Part shown: in pieces, positions 30,821 through 61,836 of the stretch
Numbering within the stretch: the first letter of the stretch is position 1
Layout: each line of letters opens with the position of its first letter
Position numbers and translations under genes: made by a program
NCBI GenBank assembly: GCA_963924555.1
Contig: OZ004586.1
Span: 1,364,001-1,428,000, forward strand
From: Crambe crambe
Taxonomy: Eukaryota; Porifera; Demospongiae; Poecilosclerida; Crambeidae
DNA: 64,000 nt
Direction of reading: 5' to 3'
The notes under the pieces: generated by a model
What the model saw: the letters and a program-made list of their open reading frames with translations, nothing else
Told to the model about the DNA's origin: nothing
The model's database searches: none

Positions 30821-33800
30821 ATGGGTGCAGTGATAAAGAAAATCACAAAGCATCCGGCAGAAACTTTGCTCGAGAGTATCCCCCAAGAGAAGCTAGATAA
30901 GCCTCTGACACATCAAGAACTGGCTGTCATCTCTAAACATCTGTTGGACTGGCCAGCTAAGGCAGTTAGTGTTTTTGGATTGTCTCTAGGGGAGGTAGAG
31001 AACATTAGGGAGAATCACAAGAACAGTCTTGACAGTCAGAAGATGGAGATGATGATTTGGTGGGGAGATAACTGCGAAAGAGACAAGAACACTCTGAGGG
31101 AGTTAATCCTCCTGTCACGAGAACATGGATTGATGGATTTTATACAAGGAGCATGTGAAAGTCTAGGATACTTAAAGAGGAGTGATGGAGGTACGTTCCA
31201 ATTGGAAAACCCTCCCCCAGCCTTGCTTAACTGTTGATGTAATGATTTCCTCTAGGTCATAAGATTAGAAAGAGTGATTCAGGTGAGCACATAGGCCTAG
31301 CTAGATCTAGCTAAAAAGACCTGGGTAGAATTAGGCAACTTTGTCATACTTCAGTTCCCCATAACTAGCCTTTGAGGGTGTAGACAAAAGTTTATTTGCC
31401 CTTGATCCTATCAATTCTTATTTCAAAACAGCTCCCTGCTGGTATTCTGCCAGTGAAATTTTGAGCTGATATAGCAGGGATCAAGTGAATACAAATTATA
31501 GAACACAGATCAGAGAAGTCTAGAAACTTCTACCTGGGATATTTACATGACTTAGTAGTCTTTGATTAACTCTAGGTTCATCCTGGTGCTATTATCTTGG
31601 TGTAGCTCTTGTTTCCATGCTGTTGCTATGCATTTACATATACAACAGAGAGATCCGCATGACACTCTATAGACCATTCTCTCCTAAATTCCCTTACCCA
31701 CCAGAGAATTTTGTTGGTCGTGAGGATGACGTTAAAGAACTAATGGAACTGATAGATTTCTCTGATGATGAATCGGCTGATATCATCAGCATAGTGGGAT
31801 CACCTGGTATAGGAAAAACAGCATTGGCTGTTTATGTTGGCAATGAGATGATACTTAATCGTGTCGTAGTTCATTATGTCAATATGAAGGAGTTTCCCAA
31901 TGAACACTTAAAGCAGGAAATTGCTGAGAGAATACTTGGTAACTTAGAATCTGACAAACCCGCAAATATAACATTTGATAAGTTATTGAAATGGGCAGGG
32001 AATAGGTTTTGGTACAACTTAATCGTGCTGGATGATTGTGATAATTGTATCAATAGTCAAAGGGAAGAGTTCCAAGATGCCATTGATAAATTACTGTTTT
32101 TCTCTGATAACATCAAGATACTGACGACAAGCAGAGATATAATAGCGCACTCTGAAGATTATCACACTTACCAGCTGAAACCACTAAGTGAAGAATCAGC
32201 ATGTAAGTATCTGGACCTTAAGCTTCACTCACGTTTGAACGATACAGGAAGAAGAATGATTGCTAATTTGACAGGAGCAATGCCTCTCGCTCTCAAGATC
32301 GTTAGATCACTTTTAACTCTAAAGGTGGACCCACCCACCCCTGAGGAAATCATTACGAAACTCGAGAGTAATCCCATTCCTGAACTTAGTCCTCCTGAAC
32401 TAAAACGAGAATATCAGTTGAACTTTTCAATAGGGTTGTCGTATGATTTTCTTAGCATAAAATTACAAAAAATCGGCAGATATCTTGCTCATTTCCCCGG
32501 CTCTTTTGAAAAGAACACTGCTACTTTTATGCTGAAGGAGATATTCAATGAGACAAGTACCGATGAGAAATACTTGGCAAACTCCCTCAATGAGTTGGTA
32601 AAACACTCATTACTTGAGTTAGATGAGCTTACACAGCGCTATCACTTCCACAGACTCATCAAGGAGTTCTTTTTGCTCTACAGCAATCACGATGAATCAC
32701 GAGAATTTAACTTTAAATTTCAAGTGTATTACTCTCTGGTACTATCACTAGCGGCTTTTAATAATGAAAGAGCATCAGCATTAGATATAGAACGTCATAA
32801 CATACAACATTTTATGACTATCATTCAAGTATATCCAACAGATCGGCAGTTTTTTTATAACACGGCTCTCACTAGCTTTGGCTTCGCTTTGGAAAAAAAA
32901 ATACTGGGATCTCTCTTTTCCCCAAAGGAATTAATCGGACCAGTAAGAAAAGTCACCGACATCGTTCAGGGAATGTTAACTGAGGATTATAGAAATGAGA
33001 GTGATATTCGGAATCTGTTTTTGACTTTTGTTCAACTGCTTGATAGCTTGTCTTATCTGACTCAAACTTTAGAAGGGAGACGCAAAGCCCTCACTCAACT
33101 AATGGAGAGAGAGAATCTGGTTGAAGACTTGGAGAGCAGAAATATTCCAGGTATTGGTTCTCAATATAAAGAATTCTATATGTTGATTTTGCTATACAAG
33201 GAGTATCTTGATGATGATTTGAAGAAGACGTATCATGCACGCGTTCTGAGAAAAGTGTACGACCCAAATTTCTGTCGTTCAAGTGAATGCGATTTTGCTA
33301 CAATTGGAAAGGCTTACTATCAGTTGGAAATTTATCCAGAGTGCATCTACTTTTATGAAAGGGCACTACAAAACGATACACTTGCACAGAGTTTCGATGC
33401 AATTTCTGTGCTTTTGAACCTCAGAGATGCTTATACCAAGTCGCGGTCATACAACAGTTCTTTTACTGAAGCAATTGATGATCAATTGCTGGATCTTTTC
33501 CCTCTGATGATGAACCAAACTTTCTCAAAAGTTCATCACAATAGTGATATATACGAGTCTTATTATATGATTTTTCACGAAATGGAGGAATTCAATGCAT
33601 CGTTAGCTATCGGTGAAAAACTGATTGAATCATACAGTGCATTCAACTGGACTAAAGATAAATATGAAGCAGTGCTTCTTGCTCATCTTGTTGCAGAAGT
33701 GCTATTGAAGAGGAAGGAGTTTGAAAGAGCTGCTAGAATGGCAACTTCTGTCTTGAAGTTCTTTAATGACACTAAACAACAGCACTTTATGGCTAGTGAT

Positions 33801-45260: not shown

Positions 45261-50668
<5,408 letters not shown>

Positions 50669-50696: not shown

Positions 50697-53600
50697 TCAA
50701 AAAACATAAAAGAATGATATCAATGATAACAAAAGGGTATAAATATATTGCATGCACTTAACTATCAACATAATTTGACAATAAAGTATTGCAATATAGA
50801 AGATAAGAAATATACTAAACAATATGATGAAATAAGGTGTCAACAGAATTATTTGATTGATAATATTCATCTTAGCAAAATCAAAAGGAAGTGTATAAAA
50901 GTAATAGTGGGCATTCTTATGAGTTACTTCAATTACATACACACATAATAGCAACACATCTTGAAGGTAAGTATTCGTCAAGAAGTAGAGATAGACTCTA
51001 GCCAAGAATGGGACAAGAGGTTTAAAACACCAGCAAATGCATACACGCAGAATGTGAATAATATTCACAATGTTTAAAATCACTGAGCTCAATAGAACTA
51101 GAATAACATCAATACGAATTGAAATTGATGCTACATTTAGACAAAAACAGATAGGAGGATATTTAAAAAATTTATACCAATAATTTATACGTGTCCATTC
51201 CAGCTGCTGTGTATATGGAAAGAGGTTGTTTTTCAATAGCATACCCAAGGGATCGTTGTTGTTAATGACTTCTAGTTCTTTTCTTGAAGACGCTACAGGT
51301 TGAGTAAGATCTGATCCAATGTCATGGCTTCTTGTATTTGTTGGAAAACAATTAAAAGGTGAAACAAAAGTGTAATATAAAACATTTGTGACCACTATAG
51401 GTAATACTCTTAAGATTGGACTTACAAAGCAAATATGAAGATATTTATATCGTGGTACTAATAACAAACAACATATCCCGTACTTCTCAAATTTGTGAGC
51501 TGAATTATTATGAATGATGTAGTTCATTACATATTCTAGATAGTCAAGTCCCTCGGAATAGTTCCCAGAGTTAAGAGTAGCCAATCCAATGAAGTATGAA
51601 ATATTAACCCTGTGAAGCTCAGAGTTTGGGGGTAATTTCTTTAATGCATGCATACCTAGTTTAACAACTTCTGTGTAGTTTTGCTTCTTGTTAAGTAGGT
51701 CAAGGAGGTAAATTATCCTATCTGGGTGATTATCAGGACCAATATCTATAAGAGCTTGAGCCACAGATTCATATAACATGTAAGCTTTGTTTGCTAGTTC
51801 ATTTTCTTGTAAAAATGATATTAGATTATGAATAAACTCCATATGCTGATAGACTTCGTGACTCTGTAATTTTAACACATTTGGCAATAAAGACACAATA
51901 TCTTTTAATACTTTCTTAGCAGCATCTTTTTTATATAATTTTTTATAAATTTGATTCAAACGCAGTAATACTTCAAAACTCGTGAATAAATTAAGATTCT
52001 CTACTGTTACCGATAAGTTGTAGAAATACGCAGCTTTTTCATAATCATTGCCTAGGTAATGGTACTCCCCTAGATCGATATATGAACAATGAGTCCCATT
52101 TTTGCACTTTTCCAGTGATCGTTGTGAGAAATTCAGAGCATATTTATAATGCTGAATAGCATGTTCATGCTCTCCTACAAGTGTATAAAGTTCACCGACA
52201 AGCACTTGAATTCTAACATAGTATGATACTTGTTCAAACTGAGGAGGGGGCTTGAAAGATCCTACTGTTGCAGCATAGTCACCATACAAGACTAAAGCTT
52301 TTTCTGCTGAATGGCTTGTCCATTTGAGTTTAATAAGTTTGTAAACCAAGTTTAAGTATTCAAGACCTGTTTCTGTGTCTGGAAAGTCTTTTCTGTTAAG
52401 ATGTATTAAACAAGCAGCACTAATTTGGATAATCTGCAGCAGTTCATCAGAAGAAAATCTACAAGCTAAATATCCAGTATCAAGTGCATTAACTATAGCT
52501 GCTATGTTAAAATATATGACATTATGTTTTTTCATATCCTTGATCAACTGTAGAAAATTATGCCGCTCAGTGTCAAGAATAGATATAGACTTCATGTATG
52601 AAGGTGTTTTAAAGTCATTAGAAGCAGCATGCAATGCTCCAAAGTAGTACTTCTGAAAATTAGCAGTAAATGTAACTATTTCTTCACTATAATTAGAAGT
52701 AGCTTCTTTATGGAGTTTAAGGAAAAATTCCCTTATTAAGCGATGAAAGTGATAACGATCATTACGTCCTTGATATTCGAGCAAAGACCTCTGTACTAGA
52801 ACTTCTACAGCATCATTAATAATATTCTCAACTTCAGCATTTGAGTTGGCCTGAATAAATCCATGCTTTAGAACAGATATATATGCTTCTTTATCAAATG
52901 ATCCAGGGAAATTGGCTAGAAGTTTTCCAATCATCTTTTCATTAGTGCTCAAATAATTGTATGATAAACTGAAAGATGCATTGATCTGTTCTTTTTTTGG
53001 AAGTTGTTTGGGGCTGAGAGTTGGAATTGGCTGCTTTTTAAGCTTTGCTATGATAGCTCCAGTGCCAGCTATATCAGGCAGTTGTAAAAGTGAGCCTATA
53101 ATTAGTAAAGCTAAAGGAACTTTCCCTGTTAGTTCAGCGATCTCTTCTTTCTCAGAAGCAGTTAGTGTGATCCTCATTGGAGCTTTGAACTGCAGCAAGT
53201 CACAAGCAGCTTTAGTACTCAGTGTGTCCAACTTATATTGCTCAAAATTACTAGTGTCTAAAGTTGCCTCACGACTGGTCATTAGGAATTTGACATAATG
53301 AGAGTTCTTGATTACCTTTTTTATAGCATCCTGTAACTCTTCTTTTTGATAATGTAAGCTTTCATCACAATTATCCAATATAATCAATGTGTAAAAATAC
53401 CTTTCCCTCGCCCAACGCAAAAGCCTATCAAATGTAATGGCCTTATCGTGTACATTGGAACTATCAAGTACTTTTTCAGCCAAAATTTGCTTAATTTTCT
53501 CTCTTGGGAATTCATCTAAATTAACATAATGTACTATATATCCACGTTTTAGCATAAGATGCCCGATATGAATAGCCAAAGTTGACTTCCCAAATCCTGG

Positions 53601-54735
53601 AGAACCAATGACACTAACTATCCTTGTTTTAGAGTCAAACCATCCAGCTATAGTGTTCATTGCATCATCTCGGCCAGTAAAGTGGTCAGAAGGATAAGGA
53701 AGACTTTTGGAGCTCTCCATGTTAACATAATACATTATTGAAGGATAGCACATATAAAGAGCAACGCCTACCACTAATAATAATATTATGGCCAGACACT
53801 TGATTAGCATACCTAATGTATTCATGACAAAAATATTCATGAGACAGAAAAACCACAAGATTGAAATAATCTAGTGAACTCACCACATCTGTGGTTTGGA
53901 GTATTCAAGCTCTGCTCTTGCTCAGTATCAATGTTTGTCTCATGGTTAATGTCAGGAGAACCTGCTCTCTGCTGTTGTAAAGAAGGCACTAGAGGAGGAG
54001 ATCGTGAGTTTGTTAAAGGAGCAGAAAAAAACAACAAACAAAATAAACAAACATGTCAAGTCAAGTTGAGAACAGAGGGTCTGGGTAGTGGTATAAGAAG
54101 GATGATTATAGGGACTATCGATGTGGGGTTATGACCACTCCAAGTGTGCCTTGGGTATGCCTCCCTCCCACCTCCTGGCAGGGATTATCATGAATTGCAT
54201 GTGATGTTTCAGTTGAGATTATGTCATAATTATGACAAGTGGTTAGCTATGTACCTTGTGGGATACTGTCGGCAAGTCCTGTCTGACCGATTTTTCCAAG
54301 TGCTGTCTTTAAACTATTCCAACTGGGTTCACCACTCTGCTCCATCACTTTATCTTCCTTATTGAGCCATGCAGCGACCATATCCTCACACAAATGCTCC
54401 ATATTCCTTAGCTTGGGGTAGGAGAGTCCCAATGCCCCACCCAATTTCTTTAAGTCCCTTTTATCCAAATTTTTTAGAAATTGAATAACTTCAAAGTGGT
54501 CGTCCATTGTTAATATTATTGCTACATAAAAAAAGGTAATTTTTGTAACAGCTAAGCAAGTGAATTACCAGACTGTTGCTCAACTATACTCACCAGGTCC
54601 TGGATTCATTTCAATATCACCAGCCAGTATCAGTAACAAGGGGATGACCACTTGGCTACCACTAAAATGGACTCCATCATCTCTTCTTTGTAGATACACA
54701 CTTCCAACACCCTTCCAGCGATGGGATCGAGCCAT
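50697..54735 (-). CDS. Receptor gene D: 2A-like leader / Death / TM / NB-ARC / TPR / C-terminal multi-TM
   Basis: Minus-strand exons 54735-54594, 54521-54255, 53988-53884, 53812-50697; 3,630 bases, 1,209 residues, phases consistent. Exon 1 encodes 47 residues with a hydrophobic stretch (VVIPLLLILA) and the 2A-like motif GDIEMNPGP. Exon 2 is a Death domain (residues about 53-135; FLKNLDKRDLKKLGGALGLS ... SWNSLKTALGKIGQ). Exon 3 is a short Ser/Gln linker. Exon 4 opens with a TM helix (CLAIILLLVVGVALYMCY, about 177-194), then NB-ARC: HFTGRDDAM, P-loop GSPGFGKST (about 241-249), LIILDNCDE, LMTSREA, TGKVPLALL, RYHFHRLIREF. The TPR region has CKNGTHC before GEYHYLGNDYEKAAYFYNLS, plus sequon GNYSEG. 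About four hydrophobic segments end the protein. The 71-base intron 53883-53813 contains stops, so splicing is needed. A tract ending TTTGCAG just before the ATG suggests an upstream noncoding exon. Function is inferred: innate sensor or cell-death ATPase at a membrane. Confidence 0.87.
54595..54639 (-). other. 2A-like ribosome-skipping motif in exon 1 of gene D
   Basis: Codons for LLLILAGDIEMNPGP end exon 1, with the exon boundary one base after the final Pro codon. The tail fits the 2A consensus D(V/I)ExNPG^P, where the ribosome skips the Gly-Pro bond. The upstream Leu/Ile run fits the usual hydrophobic context. Activity is not shown by sequence alone. Confidence 0.85.
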
Positions 54736-55140
54736 ATTCACTCTGCAAACACAGCTAGCTAAGATTAATGACATCAAGTGAATAGGCTATTATAGATAAA
54801 AGCTGGACTTCACAGTAGCCTAAACACACAATTAGCTAAATAGCTACTCAATGAACTTTCAAATATAGGCTTACTGTAACTATAACGCAGTAAGGTAAAG
54901 GGGTAGCCTGGTATGGCATAATGATGCTAGTAAGTCACTTCTTCCTGCATTCATTACTTACATATGGGTCTTGATGATCACAACTTGCTAGATTGATCTC
55001 TTATGTTCACACCTGTGGCTGTGATAAAAAGTTCTGGTCAGAGCCAGGAATCAATCTGTTGACTTTAGCTAGCTGGTGGTTACCTTAGAGATAAACAAGT
55101 AGTCATGTGACTATAGCTAGAGCTATGAATAATAGCTAGT
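54736..55140. other. 5' flank of receptor gene D
   Basis: No coding signal. Parts recur upstream of gene E (about 61840-62200) and beside pseudogene F (about 57115-57290), for example TGATGATCACAACTTGCTAG and GATTGATCTC, which marks it as part of the duplicated unit. The promoter of D should lie here. Confidence 0.6.
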
Positions 55141-55247
55141 TAATTCATGATTTTCTTGGACTCAGGGTGCCAGGATCCAGAGGGGGAGCTGAACATATTG
55201 TGTTCAGCTACCCCTCTGGATCCTGAGTCCAAGAAAATCACGAATTA
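55141..55247. repeat. Near-perfect palindrome at a duplication junction
   Basis: Left arm 55141-55197 and right arm 55200-55247 are inverted copies (GATTTTCTTGGACTCAGG against CCTGAGTCCAAGAAAATC; GGATCCAGAGGGG and GAGCTGAACA against TGTTCAGC and CCCCTCTGGATCC). The left arm has a 6-base extra (GTGCCA). Only a few bases separate the arms. Single-arm versions occur near 57281 and 62206-62263. Confidence 0.9.
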
Positions 55248-55439
55248 AGATCAATAGCGCTATATAGCCCATGTCATAATCATTGGTTTTGTTGATTACA
55301 GCAGTTGCTTGCAATTTCTGAGTCTCAATAACGTACAATAATAATTATTACAAAACTGAGAAAAAAAATATGATAACAACAATAATTATGATGATAAATA
55401 ACAAAAATACGTTTATTGTAATAAAATTGTAAGGAAGGA

Positions 55440-57095
55440 TATAAAAATAAAAATGGGCATTCTTATAAATTACTTCAATTACATGCACACATAAGAACAC
55501 ATCTTGAAGGTAAGTATTTACGTATCAAGAAGTAGAGATAGATTCTAGCTAAGAATGGGACAAGAGGTTTAAAACAAAAGAAAATGCAAACACGTAAAAT
55601 ATAAATAAAATGTACAATACATAAAATCTCCAAGCTCAATAGAAGTAAAGCAAGATCAATACGAATTAAAATTGATACTGCTTTCAGATAAAGGAGGAAA
55701 TTTTATAATTTTCTGTAGCCACATCCATTGCAGCTGCTGTGGATTTGGAAAGAACCCGTTTGTCAACAGCACACCCAAGGGGTTGTTGTTATTAATAATT
55801 CTTTTCTTGAAGATAGTACAACATGAGTAAGTTGTGATCCAATGTCATGGCTACTTGCTGGAAGACAATTAAAAGGTATAGCAAAAGTGAGATATGCTAT
55901 ACCTTATATGCTCACTATAAGTGATGCTATTGATTTAAAAAGAAAAACCAAACTGAACATCTGTGACCACTCTAGAAGTAGGGCTTACGAAGCATGCGTA
56001 AAGGTATTTATAGCGTGGTGCTAACAGCAAACAACATTTCCAGTACTTTAAAAGACGATGAAGAAGTATGAATCATGTAGTTCATTACATATTCTAGATA
56101 GTCAAGTCCTTCAGAAATAGTTCCCAGAGTGAAAAGTAGCCAATCCAATGAAGTATGAAATATTAACCTTGTGATGTTCATTGTGTTCAGGTAAGTTATT
56201 TAATATAAATTGCATTCAAATGAATTAATATTTCAAGCTTCGTGAATAAAGTAAGATTCTCTACTGTTAATGATAAGTTGTAGAAATGCATAGCTAGCAT
56301 TTTCAAAATCATTGCCTAGGTAATGGTAATTCCTTAGATCGATAATTATATGAACAATGATTCTCACTCTCACATTCTTTCAGTGATCGTCGTGTGAATT
56401 TCAGAGCATATTGATAATGCTGAATAGAACATTTATGCTGGAAAATGGGCTAGAAGTTTTCCAATCATCTTTTCATTAGTGCTCAGATAAACTGAAAGAT
56501 GCATTGATCTGTTTGTTTCTTGGAAGTTATTTGGGGCTGAGAGTTGGAATTGGCTGGTTTTTAAGCTCTGCTATGATAGCTAGCTCCATATCAGGCAGTT
56601 GTAAAAGTGAACCTATTATTAGTAAAGCTAAAGGAACTTTCCCTGTCTGTTCAGCAATCTCTTCTTTCTCAGAAGCAGTTAGTGTGATCTTCATTGGAGC
56701 TTTGAACTGTAGCAAGTCACAAGCAGCTTTAGTATTCAGTGCACAACTGGTCATTAGGAATTTCACAGTAGCATCTTATAACTCTTCTTTTTGATAGTGC
56801 AAGCTTTCACCAATATTACTCATGTATTAAGATTCCTTTCCCTGGCCCAACGCAAAAGCCTATCAAGGCCTTATTATGTTATCATGACAAAAATATTCAT
56901 GAGACAAAGAAAATCACAAGATTGGTAAACTCACCATATTTGTGTCTTGGAGTATTCAAGCTCGTCTCATCGTAAATGTAGGGAGAACATGCTCTTAATT
57001 CCATCTGTGATAGAGAAGGCACTATAGGGGGGCAAGAAGAGTTCAGATTGAGCACAGAGGGTGTGGGCAGTGGTGATTTGAATGGGGGGACCACA
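55440..57095 (-). pseudogene. Receptor pseudogene F (decayed D/E-type copy)
   Basis: Segments match genes D and E in order: 3' flank and C-terminal TM region (55440-56000), TPR region (56050-56440), then a deletion that jumps to the winged-helix/NB-ARC part (56440-56840), then the start of the TM exon and the linker exon (56885-57065). Frameshifts and stops are frequent and most of NB-ARC, including the P-loop, is missing; the longest frames are 79 and 96 codons. The Death and 2A exons are not found upstream. A short readable piece is TGKVPLALLIIGSLLQLPDM. Confidence 0.88.
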
Positions 57096-57429
57096 GTCAG
57101 AGTATATGGGGTTATGCAACTAGCTAGATTAGTCTCTATGTTTCACACCTGTGATAAATTCTTGTCTGAGCCAAGGAACAAAGAAAGTTCTGTGACTTTA
57201 TATATAGCTACCTTAGCTAGCTAGCTATAGAGATAAAATGTCATGTGACTAGCTAGATCAGCAAATTAGCTAGTTTATGATTTTCTTGGACTCTAATTAT
57301 TGTATAGCTGGGAATCATGAAATTTTGACTAAACATTATGAAAATGGAATAGCTAATATTGACTAGTACCCACACACAAGGTGAGCATACTTTATTATTC
57401 AAGCAGCTGATGGATAAGAGTCAATTTCG

Positions 57430-57777: not shown

Positions 57778-60700
57778 TTATAAGATAAATTGAAACAATA
57801 TACATACGACAATAAAGACAATACATACGATAATAAAGATAATACATATGATAATAAAGACAATAAATAATATGATGAAAAAAATATATAAAATTAATAT
57901 ATTAATGTTTATTGTAATAAAATTGTAAGGAAGTATATAAGAATAAAAAATGGTGTTCTTATAAGTTACTTCAATTACATGCACACATAATAGCAACACA
58001 TCTTGAAGGTAAGTATTTATCATGAAGTAGAAATAGATTCTAGCTAAGAATGGGACAAGAGGCTCAAAACGATAGCAAATGCACTTGCACAGAATGTGAA
58101 TAAAAACTACTATGTGGAAAATCACCAAGCTCAATAAAAGTACAGTAGGATAAATACGAATTAAAATTGATGCTGTATTCAGAAAAAAACACACAGGAGG
58201 ATATTTTATAATTTTTGACCAATTTATGTTTAGTTGCAGCTGCTGTGGTGTATGTAAAAAGAAGTTGTTTTTTAATAGCACACCAAAGGGGTTGCTATCA
58301 ATGACTTCTAGTTCTTTTCTCGAAGACGGTACAGCATGAGTAAGTTCTGATCCAGTGCTACTTGTTTGAAAGCAATAAAAAGGTGAAACAAAAATGTAAT
58401 ATATGACATTTGTGACTACTATATTATTATGTAATACTCTTGGTTTAAAAGGCAAAACAAAACTTAAATATAAAATATTCGTGACCACTCTTGAAGTGGG
58501 ACTTATAAAGCATGTATGAAGGTAATTATATCGTATTGCTAACAACCAACAACATGTCCAGTGGTCAGATTCGTGAAAAGATGAAGGATTTTGAATGATA
58601 TAGTTTAGCACATATTCTAAATAGTCAAGTCCTTCAGAATAGTTCCCAGAGTGAAAAGTAGCCAATCCAATAAAGTATGAAAGCTTAGCCTTAACAATTT
58701 CGTGATGCTTATAGTGTGCTGGTAATTTCTTTAATGCAGGAATACCTATTTTAAGAGCTTCTGCATATTTTCCCTCCTGAACAAGTAGGTAAAGCATGTG
58801 GATGACATTGATTATCCTACCTGGGTGATCATCAATACCAATGTCTACAATAACTTGAGCTGCACATTCCAATAACATGTCACTTTCAATCCTTAGTTTA
58901 TTTTCTTGTAAACATGATATTAGATTATAAATGCACTGCATATGCTGATAGACTTCATAACTCTGTAATTTTGATACATTTGGCAATAGCGACACAATAT
59001 CTTTTAATGATTTTTCAGCAGCATCTTCTTGATTTAATTTTTTATAAATTCGATTCAAAATTGGTAATATATCAAGTGTTTTGAATAAATCAAGATTCTC
59101 TACTGTTAATGACAAGTTGTAGAAATATGCAGCCTTTTCAAAATCATTACCTAGGTAATGGTAAACCCCTAGATCTCTATATGAACAATGAGTCACATTT
59201 TCACACCTTTCCAGAGATCGTCGTGAGAATTTCAGAGCATATTTATAAAGCTGAATAGAACGTTCATGCTCTCCTACAAGTGAATAAAGTTTACTGACAA
59301 GTATTTGAATTCTAACATAGTTTGATACTAGTTCAAATTGAGGAGGGGGCTTGAAAGAATCAACAATCGCATCATAGTCACCATATAAGACTAAAGCCTC
59401 TTCTGCTGAATGGCTTGTCAATTTGAGATTAATAAGTTCATAAATGAACTTCAAGTATATCTCTTCCATTCCCGTGACATTAAATTTTGTATCAACATTT
59501 TGTAAAAAGCTGTGAAGATAAGCAGCACTAACTTGGATAATCTGCAATATATCATCAGAAGAAAATCTACAAGCTAAATATCCAGTATCAAGAGCATTAA
59601 CTATAGCTGCTATGTTGAAATGTTTGACATTATATGTCTTCATATCCTTGATCAACTGTAGAAAATTATGCTGCTCAGTATCAAGAATAGATACAGACTT
59701 CATGTATGAAGGTGTTTTAAAGTCATTAGAAGCAGCATGCAATACTCCAAAGTAGTACTTCTGAAAATTAGCAGTGAATGTAATTATTTCTTCACTATAA
59801 TTAGAAGCAGTTTCTTTATGCAGTTTAAGGAAAAATTCCCTTATTAAGTGATGAAAGTGAAAACGATCATTGCGTCTTTGATATTCAAGCAAGGACCTCT
59901 GTACTAAAACTTTTACAGCAGCATTAATAATATTCTCAACTTCAGCATTCGAGTCTGCCTGGATAAATCTATGCTTTAGAACAGACATGTATGCTTCTTT
60001 ATCAAATGATCCAGGGAAATTGGATAAGATTTTTCCAATCATCTTTTCATTAGTGTTCAGATAGCTATATGATAAACTGAAAGATGCATTGATCTGTTCA
60101 TTTCTTGGAAGTTGTTTGGGGCTGAGAGTTGGAATTGGCTGTTTTTTAAGCTCTGCTATGATAGCTCCAGTCCCAGCTGTATCAGGAAGTTGTAAAAGTG
60201 AGCCTATTATTAGCAAAGCTAGAGGAACTTTCCCTGTTAATTCAGCAATCTCTTCTTTCTCAGAAGCAGTTAGTGTGATCCTCATTGGAGCTTTGAACTG
60301 CAGCAAGTCACAAGCAGCTTTAGTACTCAGTGCGTCTAGCTTATATTGCTCAAAGTTACTAGTAAGCATTATTGCCTCACGACTAGTCATTAGGAATTTG
60401 ACAGTATGAGAGTTCTTGAGTACCTTTTCTATAGCATCTTGCAACTCTTCTTTTTGATAGTGTAAGCTTTCATCACAATTATCCAATATTATTAATGTGT
60501 AAAAATATCTTTCTCTAGCCCAATGCAAAAGTGTATCAAATGTAATGGTTTTGTCGTATAAATTGGAACTTTTTAGTACTTTTTCAGCTAAAATTTGTTT
60601 GATTTTCTTTCTTGGGAATTCATCTAAATTAACATAATGCACTATATATCCACGTTTTAGCATAAGATGCCCAATATGAATAGCCAAAGTTGACTTCCCA

Positions 60701-61836
60701 AATCCTGGAGAACCAATGACACTAACTATCCTTCTTTCAGAGTCAAACCATCCAGCTATAGTGTTCATTGCATCATCTCGGCCATTGAAGTGGTCAGAAG
60801 GATAAGGAAGACTTTTTGAGCTCTCCATGTTAACATAATACATTATTGTAGGATAGTACATAAAAAGAGCAACGCCTACCACTAATATGGCCAGATACTT
60901 GATTAGCATACCTAATGTATTCATGACAAAAATATTCACGAGACAAAAAAACCACAAGATTGACTCACCACATTTGTGTTTTGGAGTATTCAAGCTCTGC
61001 TCTTGCTCAGTATCAAGGTTTATCTCAGAAGAACATTTTCTCTGCTGTTGTGGAGCTGATAAAGAAGGCACTAGAGGAGGAGATTGTGAGTCTATCAAAA
61101 GAGAGGGGCAAAAAAGATACCATAAATCAGTGCAAGTTGAGCACAGAGGGTCTGGGCAGTGGTGTAGGAAGATGATTTTGAATGGGGGGACAACTATCAG
61201 AGTATGTGGGGTTATGACCACATAACTAGCATGCAAGTGCACCATCTAAGGAGATCTGGGGCACTCCCCCCAAGGGAAATTTTGATTCGCAATCTGAGAG
61301 GGATTGGCTAGCTAGCTACTGATGGTTTATGTTGCAAGTGGCTATAGCTACCTTGCATGATAATGTTAGACTCAGCAAGTCCTGTCTGACCAATTTTTTT
61401 GAGTGCTGTTTTTAAACTATTCCAACTGGGTTCACCGCTCTGCTCTATCACTTCATCTTCCTTATTGAGCCATGCAGCAATCATGTCCTCACACAATGAC
61501 TCCATATTCCTTAGCTTGGGGTAGGAGAGTCCCAGTGCCCCACCCAAACTGGTCAAATCCTTCTTATTCAAATTTTTCAGAAATTGAACAACTCTGAAGT
61601 GGTCTTTCATTGTTAATAATATTGCTACATAAAAAAGAATAAAGTTTTGTAACAGCTATAGCTAGTGAAGCACCAGACGCTCAACTATGCTCACCAGGTC
61701 CTGGATTCATTTCAATATCACCAGCCAGTATCAGTAACAAGGGGATGATCACTTGACTACCACTATAATGGACACCATCATCTCTTCTTCGCAGATACAT
61801 ACTTCCAACACCCTTCCAGTAGTGGGATTGAGCCAT
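57778..61836 (-). CDS. Receptor gene E: 2A-like leader / Death / TM / NB-ARC / TPR / C-terminal multi-TM
   Basis: Minus-strand exons 61836-61695, 61624-61352, 61070-60969, 60911-57778; 3,651 bases, 1,216 residues. A close paralogue of D throughout. Exon 1 encodes a 47-residue leader ending LAGDIEMNPGP. Exon 2 is a Death domain (FLKNLNKKDLTSLGGALGLS, SWNSLKTALKKIGQ). Exon 4 gives the TM helix (YLAILVVGVALFMYYP) and NB-ARC: P-loop GSPGFGKST, LIILDNCDE, LMTSREA, TGKVPLALL, and RFHFHHLIREF. The TPR region has CENVTHC before GVYHYLGNDFEKAAYFYNLS, and GNYSEG. C-terminal helices are Ile-rich and end in a repetitive run of Ile, Phe and Val. The last intron (60968-60912) is 57 bases with no in-frame stop, so unspliced RNA would add 19 residues. 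An alternative exon 3 acceptor at about 61091 also keeps frame. An upstream ATG at 61245 lies in an intron and is rejected. Function is inferred as for D. Confidence 0.87.
61696..61740 (-). other. 2A-like ribosome-skipping motif in exon 1 of gene E
   Basis: Encodes LLLILAGDIEMNPGP at the end of exon 1, identical to gene D although the leader before it has several substitutions (for example SHYWKGVGSMYLRRRDD in place of SHRWKGVGSVYLQRRDD). Confidence 0.85.

Follow-up and report, generated by a model that had tools for sequence, protein, structure and literature searches.

A candidate StopGo (2A) leader exon on a membrane-bound NB-ARC receptor gene of the sponge Crambe crambe

The gene for a predicted membrane-bound NB-ARC–TPR receptor of Crambe crambe, here called gene D, begins with a short separate exon that likely works as a StopGo (2A) element. 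As we read the gene, ribosomes would fail to form the bond between Gly-46 and Pro-47 of the leader on most passes, and a single mRNA would give rise to a 46-residue leader and a receptor that starts with proline, followed by a Death-like domain. The uncleaved leader–receptor fusion would be the minority product. The leader and the Death-like exon would have arrived together as a phase-1 cassette that is common to other receptor-like gene families of the genome, the recipient being a membrane NB-ARC–TPR lineage in which the first exons of the other members encode Death or CARD and no leader precedes them. Splicing and skipping in vivo, as well as the ratio of the products, we infer from the features described below.

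Leader exon and receptor model of gene D

The DNA analyzed is a 64,000-nucleotide stretch of the C. crambe genome (assembly GCA_963924555.1, contig OZ004586.1, positions 1,364,001 to 1,428,000 of the forward strand), referred to as the window; coordinates are those of the window. A first-pass annotation had proposed a separate 142-base first exon whose phase joins it in frame to an exon at 54521. At the level of the DNA this observation is confirmed in sequence, coordinates, frame, and phase. The exon translates into MARSHRWKGVGSVYLQRRDDGVHFSGSQVVIPLLLILAGDIEMNPGP plus one base, which corresponds to a leader of 47 residues with the C-terminal end LLLILAGDIEMNPGP. Its DIEMNPGP core matches the D(V/I)ExNPGP consensus of StopGo/2A elements and is directly preceded by LLLILAG, a permissive L-rich context ending in (A/S/C)G. 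The methionine at core position 4 lies outside the residues favored in viral StopGo, as far as the accessible text of PMC12846837 describes them.

The frame past the core stays open through the modeled splice into the Death-like exon, which starts at 54521 right after an acceptor ending in TTTTATGTAG; the bases preceding this exon (54521-54255) are TTTTTTTATGTAG. Because a CAG stands directly 5′ of AGTGAATATGG in both gene D and its paralogue D2, the leader exon may start 7 nt further 5′, behind an intron in the 5′-UTR. The same CAG is absent from L035, a relative of the gene D leader on contig C8.

With predicted joins, the four exons of gene D form an open model of 1209 amino acids, the stop of which ends at 50697, and all three introns are in phase 1. 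This model supports the claim that the phase of a 2A-type leader exon fits a Death-like exon and an NB-ARC receptor. The receptor possesses a STAND nucleotide-binding domain (NB-ARC), whereas NACHT scored 22.5 bits, below the cut-off of 26.7, and no LRR was present among the 18 families listed. A TM segment is predicted directly before NB-ARC and several more at the C terminus. Among 121 relatives fetched, 60 of the 67 that could be judged have a TM segment no more than 110 residues ahead of the P-loop, and at least two C-terminal TM segments are present in 47 of 64.

Paralogue D2 (61836-57778, minus strand) has the same leader type and exon layout, with a model of 1216 amino acids. Between the two genes lies a degenerate NB-ARC–TPR copy (55400-57150, minus strand), comprising linker-exon and C-terminal stretches without a leader exon. 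Some 400 nt before the leader exon, a near-palindrome of ∼110 bases (55140-55248; 80% against its own reverse complement) resembles a small hairpin transposon. The window also contains a long GA-rich simple repeat (46450-46710) inside a multi-exon gene region.

Features of gene D and paralogue D2 in the window
Feature	Positions	Strand	Description
2A leader exon, gene D	54594..54735	-	142 nt, phase 1 end
StopGo core codons D-I-E-M-N-P-G-P, residues 40-47	54595..54618	-	pattern match 54596-54618 and translation
Hydrophobic stretch VVIPLLLILAG, residues 29-39	54619..54651	-	AG end directly before core
Intron 1, gene D	54522..54593	-	72 nt, donor GTGAGT, acceptor ...TTATGTAG
Death-like exon, gene D	54255..54521	-	phase 1 at both ends; in-frame ATG 54507-54505
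35-aa linker exon, gene D	53884..53988	-	phase 1 at both ends; apparent shortened CARD exon remnant
Main exon, gene D	50697..53812	-	TM segment, NB-ARC, TPR, C-terminal TM segments, stop
NB-ARC match, gene D	53073..53666	-	Pfam PF00931, E 1.2e-8
TPR match, gene D	52011..52214	-	Pfam PF13424, E 5.9e-8
2A leader exon, D2	61695..61836	-	core pattern match and gene model
Death-like exon, D2	61352..61624	-	gene model and family alignment
Linker exon, D2	60969..61070	-	gene model
Main exon, D2	57778..60911	-	NB-ARC E 2.3e-8

The assignment of the second exon to the Death family, as made in the first-pass annotation, is tentative; its support comes from the relatives and the predicted fold of the exon, whereas the Pfam Death match of the exon by itself is below the cut-off (E = 0.086). 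The exon belongs to a family with at least 154 matches in the genome (E ≤ 0.01; scoring covered 150 of 428 candidates). Four of 18 aligned members match Pfam Death (best E = 2.7e-4), and a profile comparison of the family with six exons, most of them better Death matches, gave a probability of 82% (E = 1e-5). The AlphaFold2 model of the exon is all-helical (pLDDT 94.6). A search of PDB sequences with the family profile recovered no protein of the death fold. P0121, a protein of 730 amino acids encoded on an NCBI/ENA contig, combines a hydrophobic N terminus with a C-terminal domain that is 46% identical to the Death-like exon of gene D.

Recurrence of the leader in the genome

The DxExNPGP pattern has 210 matches in the 143-Mb genome, all of them listed (54 + 49 + 41 + 66), compared with a single match for the reversed pattern; the two matches in the window compare with a mean of 0.00 over 100 shuffles. 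These controls rule out chance occurrence of the core. We read 90 of the 210 sites (8 from the top of the list, the 20 that follow in contig order, 60 covering other clusters, and 2 from the window), a non-random sample in which paralogues are non-independent. Leader-like sequences were found at 88 of them, including one degenerate leader (L076), and the other two (L066 and L075) look like chance matches. For the genome as a whole, candidate leader exons of the same type number about 207.

Several features outside the search pattern recur at these sites. Glycine stands directly before the core in 87 of 90 cases and alanine, serine, or cysteine before that in 87, with both present in 86; valine or isoleucine occupies the second core position, which is free in the pattern, in 87 of 90. 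Of the 73 sites with a strong splice donor, 72 have the first such donor in phase 1. This donor lies within 13 nt of the core at 70 of 90 sites, as opposed to 7.8% in a set of 4,500 random positions. A weaker donor, AAAG/GTATT, by eye likewise in phase 1, is used at twelve sites, all from one group; L001 and L003 show GC instead of GT, and the donor is lost in L073 and L074. Core variants with G or C at p12 had no match genome-wide, with a pattern that covered two of the four Gly codons.

In a rough single-linkage clustering that left out the last six residues, the 88 leaders fell into 16 groups, eight of them with at least two members and some of the singletons short. Several groups show no similarity to one another, yet they share the core, the L-rich context, and the phase. 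One set of nine near-identical leaders (L001–L009, contig C1, 3.55-4.0 Mb) features a 24-residue uncharged run before the core.

Since the core served as the search key, its constancy in these sites is uninformative, and we therefore searched with the 24 bases 5′ of the core, taken from the leader class of gene D, without the core itself. This pattern had 69 matches, 62 of them with at most two mismatches, compared with three matches for the control. An intact core stands at the expected offset in 61 of the 62, and the remaining one has a core ∼500 nt further on. The seven matches with three mismatches have no core nearby; being about as few as the three of the control, they are probably due to chance. 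Many of the copies are close tandem relatives, and retention of the core is therefore support rather than proof. In 35 leaders of the gene D class, pN/pS drops from 0.84 (codons −28 to −15) to 0.54, 0.43, and finally 0.14 in the core, where all letters but positions 2 and 4 are fixed by the search. The weak constraint on the N-terminal part of the leader argues against a conserved peptide product, and we set aside a peptide hormone or similar on the same value.

Genes behind the leaders and origin of the leader–Death cassette

The genes that follow the leaders differ between loci. Two Ig domains lie downstream of L009, one just above the cut-off (E = 5.8e-7) and one just below it (E = 9.3e-7); among L001–L009, this is the locus at which downstream exons were read. 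Other leaders are followed by a Death domain (E = 1.1e-5) and ankyrin repeats (L010), by Death just below the cut-off (L012), by Death at E = 1.3e-5 (L027), or by weak Death and weak Roc matches (L016), the large ORF of the latter having at least 53 matches in the genome. In the 8 kb upstream, a leader on the same strand is present for 5 of 103 NACHT matches listed (opposite-strand control, 0) and for 2 of 14 NB-ARC matches, namely D and D2. For the Death-like exons, 148 of the 154 matches were used: 46 of the 148 listed have a core within 1 kb upstream and 102 have none, and the sequences L091–L094, which precede four Death exons for which no core is listed, show no leader by eye. Leader-bearing genes are thus varied and most Death exons lack a leader, which means that the leader is no mark of NLRs as such. 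In seven listed cases from a cluster of NACHT genes on contig C9 (7.06-7.53 Mb), a relative of the Death-like exon of gene D is located 1.2-1.8 kb upstream, with no listed core.

One cluster around the window holds 7 of the 14 NB-ARC matches of the genome. By eye-made joins, three NB-ARC neighbors on the plus strand start with a Death exon bearing its own ATG, at 30821 (E = 7.5e-5), 34873 (E = 0.0053, below the cut-off), and 41145 (E = 2.9e-10), and the next NB-ARC gene on the minus strand (L090) opens with a short exon, followed by one that encodes CARD (E = 6.6e-10). The seventh NB-ARC match of the cluster has no core among the matches listed there. The border of the D2 linker exon matches the start of the L090 CARD exon (89% over 56 nt), and the TM/NB-ARC exon matches as well. 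From the border match, the linker looks like a CARD remnant.

The stretch from leader through intron 1 to Death-like exon of gene D aligns with L035 on contig C8 (78% over 524 nt) up to a point 20 nt past the Death exon. Neither the 5.5 kb that follow the L035 cassette nor the rest of its surroundings yielded an NB-ARC match. Given that the four neighbors that were read start with leaderless Death or CARD exons, the leader and Death exon of gene D were probably gained by exon shuffling. This direction we infer as the simplest reading; the neighbors may instead have lost the leader, and the tree of Death exons lacks the resolution to identify the donor gene of the D exon or to settle gain versus loss. 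A search among 1266 candidates from other organisms revealed no leader-bearing relative; the one protein that matched at E ≤ 1 did so in the Death-like part alone. NPGP is absent from the first 300 residues of all 121 NB-ARC relatives, although many of these are gene calls made without introns, in which a leader exon would be missed. A single-frame Death–TM–NB-ARC–TPR relative from another source (P0015, 911 amino acids) starts without a 2A leader.

A wider scenario, which we put forward tentatively and consider rather doubtful, takes StopGo leaders as a mobile exon module, in phase 1, that serves receptor genes of all kinds. Several unrelated leader lineages, each with the same recoding core at its end, would have been shuffled before Death–GTPase, Ig, NACHT, and NB-ARC genes, and the skipping ratio would set the membrane side of the effector domain, not a split between cytosol and secretion.

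Alternative readings and known systems

The first-pass annotation had pointed to 2A-like leaders in sea urchins, and this precedent exists. The NLRs of Strongylocentrotus purpuratus carry N-terminal 2A-like signal sequences, SpNLR2A (Roulston et al. 2016, PMC4981915); SpNLR2A6 skips at ∼80% in vitro, and the unskipped form enters the secretory pathway (PMC4981915). A corresponding switch between two locations would be a stronger claim for the Crambe leaders, compatible with a working StopGo element, and we regard it as a serious possibility although on balance slightly the less probable outcome: after failed skipping, the hydrophobic leader would send the fusion to the ER, and after successful skipping, the receptor would be made without it. 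For gene D, the TM segments of the receptor itself, which had been overlooked in the first-pass annotation, turn this idea into a question of membrane sides. Since a TM segment separates Death from NB-ARC, success or failure of skipping would determine the side on which the Death domain lies and hence whether signaling is possible. Such a switch is consistent with the sea urchin leader, with the TM segment before the P-loop in most relatives, with the hydrophobic character of the leaders (best 12-residue window of at least 2 in 72 of 88), and with the Ig-encoding exons behind the L009 leader and its long uncharged run. Ig domains are normally outside the cytosol. However, the hydrophobic run of gene D comprises just 11 residues and begins at residue 29, 28 residues away from the Met, and an in-frame Met lies within 35 residues of the run in just 34 of 88 leaders, the starts of which are uncertain. 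Moreover, L-rich stretches are needed for StopGo itself (accessible text of PMC12846837), and they are therefore no evidence of a signal sequence in the leader.

The remaining alternatives concern the StopGo element as such. It is unlikely that the receptor is mostly made from the ATG of the Death-like exon, by another promoter or by leaky scanning, with the leader exon as a minor isoform. This ATG is common to D2 and several relatives, and the 102 Death exons without a nearby core would fit such a product, but other leader-bearing relatives have isoleucine or valine at the Met position, and the shortness of intron 1 and the phase and frame kept in both D and D2 speak for a joined leader. Slightly less probable still is a real exon with a passive motif, in which the core would be inherited with the exon without any skipping and the leader would be an ordinary N terminus or signal sequence. 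The unusual methionine in the core points in this direction, and the changes between the leaders of D and D2 (7 replacement and 4 silent) are too few to show constraint; the near-complete retention of the core in the upstream-only matches and its occurrence, together with L-rich context and phase, in dissimilar leader groups argue against it. Finally, 2A-like sequences are present in non-LTR elements of several animals (PMC4981915, PMC11512398), and the leader could in principle be the N terminus of such an ORF, which we consider very improbable. At nearly all sites with a strong donor, the frame does not run on past the core but stops shortly behind it at a phase-1 donor. The downstream ORFs tested at the sampled loci matched Death, Ig, Ank, or, weakly, P-loop or GTPase, or had no match; reverse transcriptase was not among the results. 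In D and D2, the place of an in-frame reverse transcriptase/endonuclease ORF is taken by a splice donor, followed by the Death and NB-ARC exons.

A working StopGo leader on gene D would thus belong to a kind known on immune receptors since 2016. Our literature search, run over journals other than preprints and most subscription titles, returned no report of leaders this numerous or widespread, nor of any that precede NB-ARC, Ig, or GTPase genes. Among cellular genes, StopGo is described as very rare (PMC12846837, in the part accessible). Some 207 leader exons of unrelated groups on varied receptors would open cellular ribosome skipping to comparison, including the sequences that set the ratio and the response to infection or stress, and such a genome would also make it possible to follow the spread of a recoding element through exon shuffling. 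The paralogues with and without leader within 40 kb of one cluster constitute a natural experiment on leader function.

Three known systems resemble the arrangement in Crambe. Membrane-bound NLRs of sponges (PMC12909245) are likewise NLR-like receptors with TM domains and an N-terminal Death or CARD; in contrast to gene D, they are described as NACHT–LRR proteins, and the accessible part of that report mentions no skipping leader. With viral StopGo/2A elements, the Crambe leaders share the core D(V/I)ExNPGP and the L-rich stretch ending in (A/S/C)G right before it; such stretches before the D represent two upstream motif classes in viruses, one of which was assayed and found active (PMC12846837, accessible text). 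They differ in being an exon of a host gene at the protein N terminus, whereas the viral elements are internal polyprotein sites, and gene D differs in the methionine at core position 4. The third system is SpNLR2A, the dual-function leader of which is N-terminal as is that of the gene D model. Both comprise 2A-like sequences on Death/nucleotide-binding immune receptors, a hydrophobic run before GD(V/I)ExNPGP, and many gene copies, as far as the available text of PMC4981915 allows the comparison. However, the sea urchin leader has ∼26 residues and sits on NACHT–LRR proteins, whereas the Crambe leaders, predicted from the genome sequence, are longer, form a separate phase-1 exon, fall into several unrelated groups, and precede different kinds of genes, the receptor of gene D being an NB-ARC–TPR protein with TM segments of its own.
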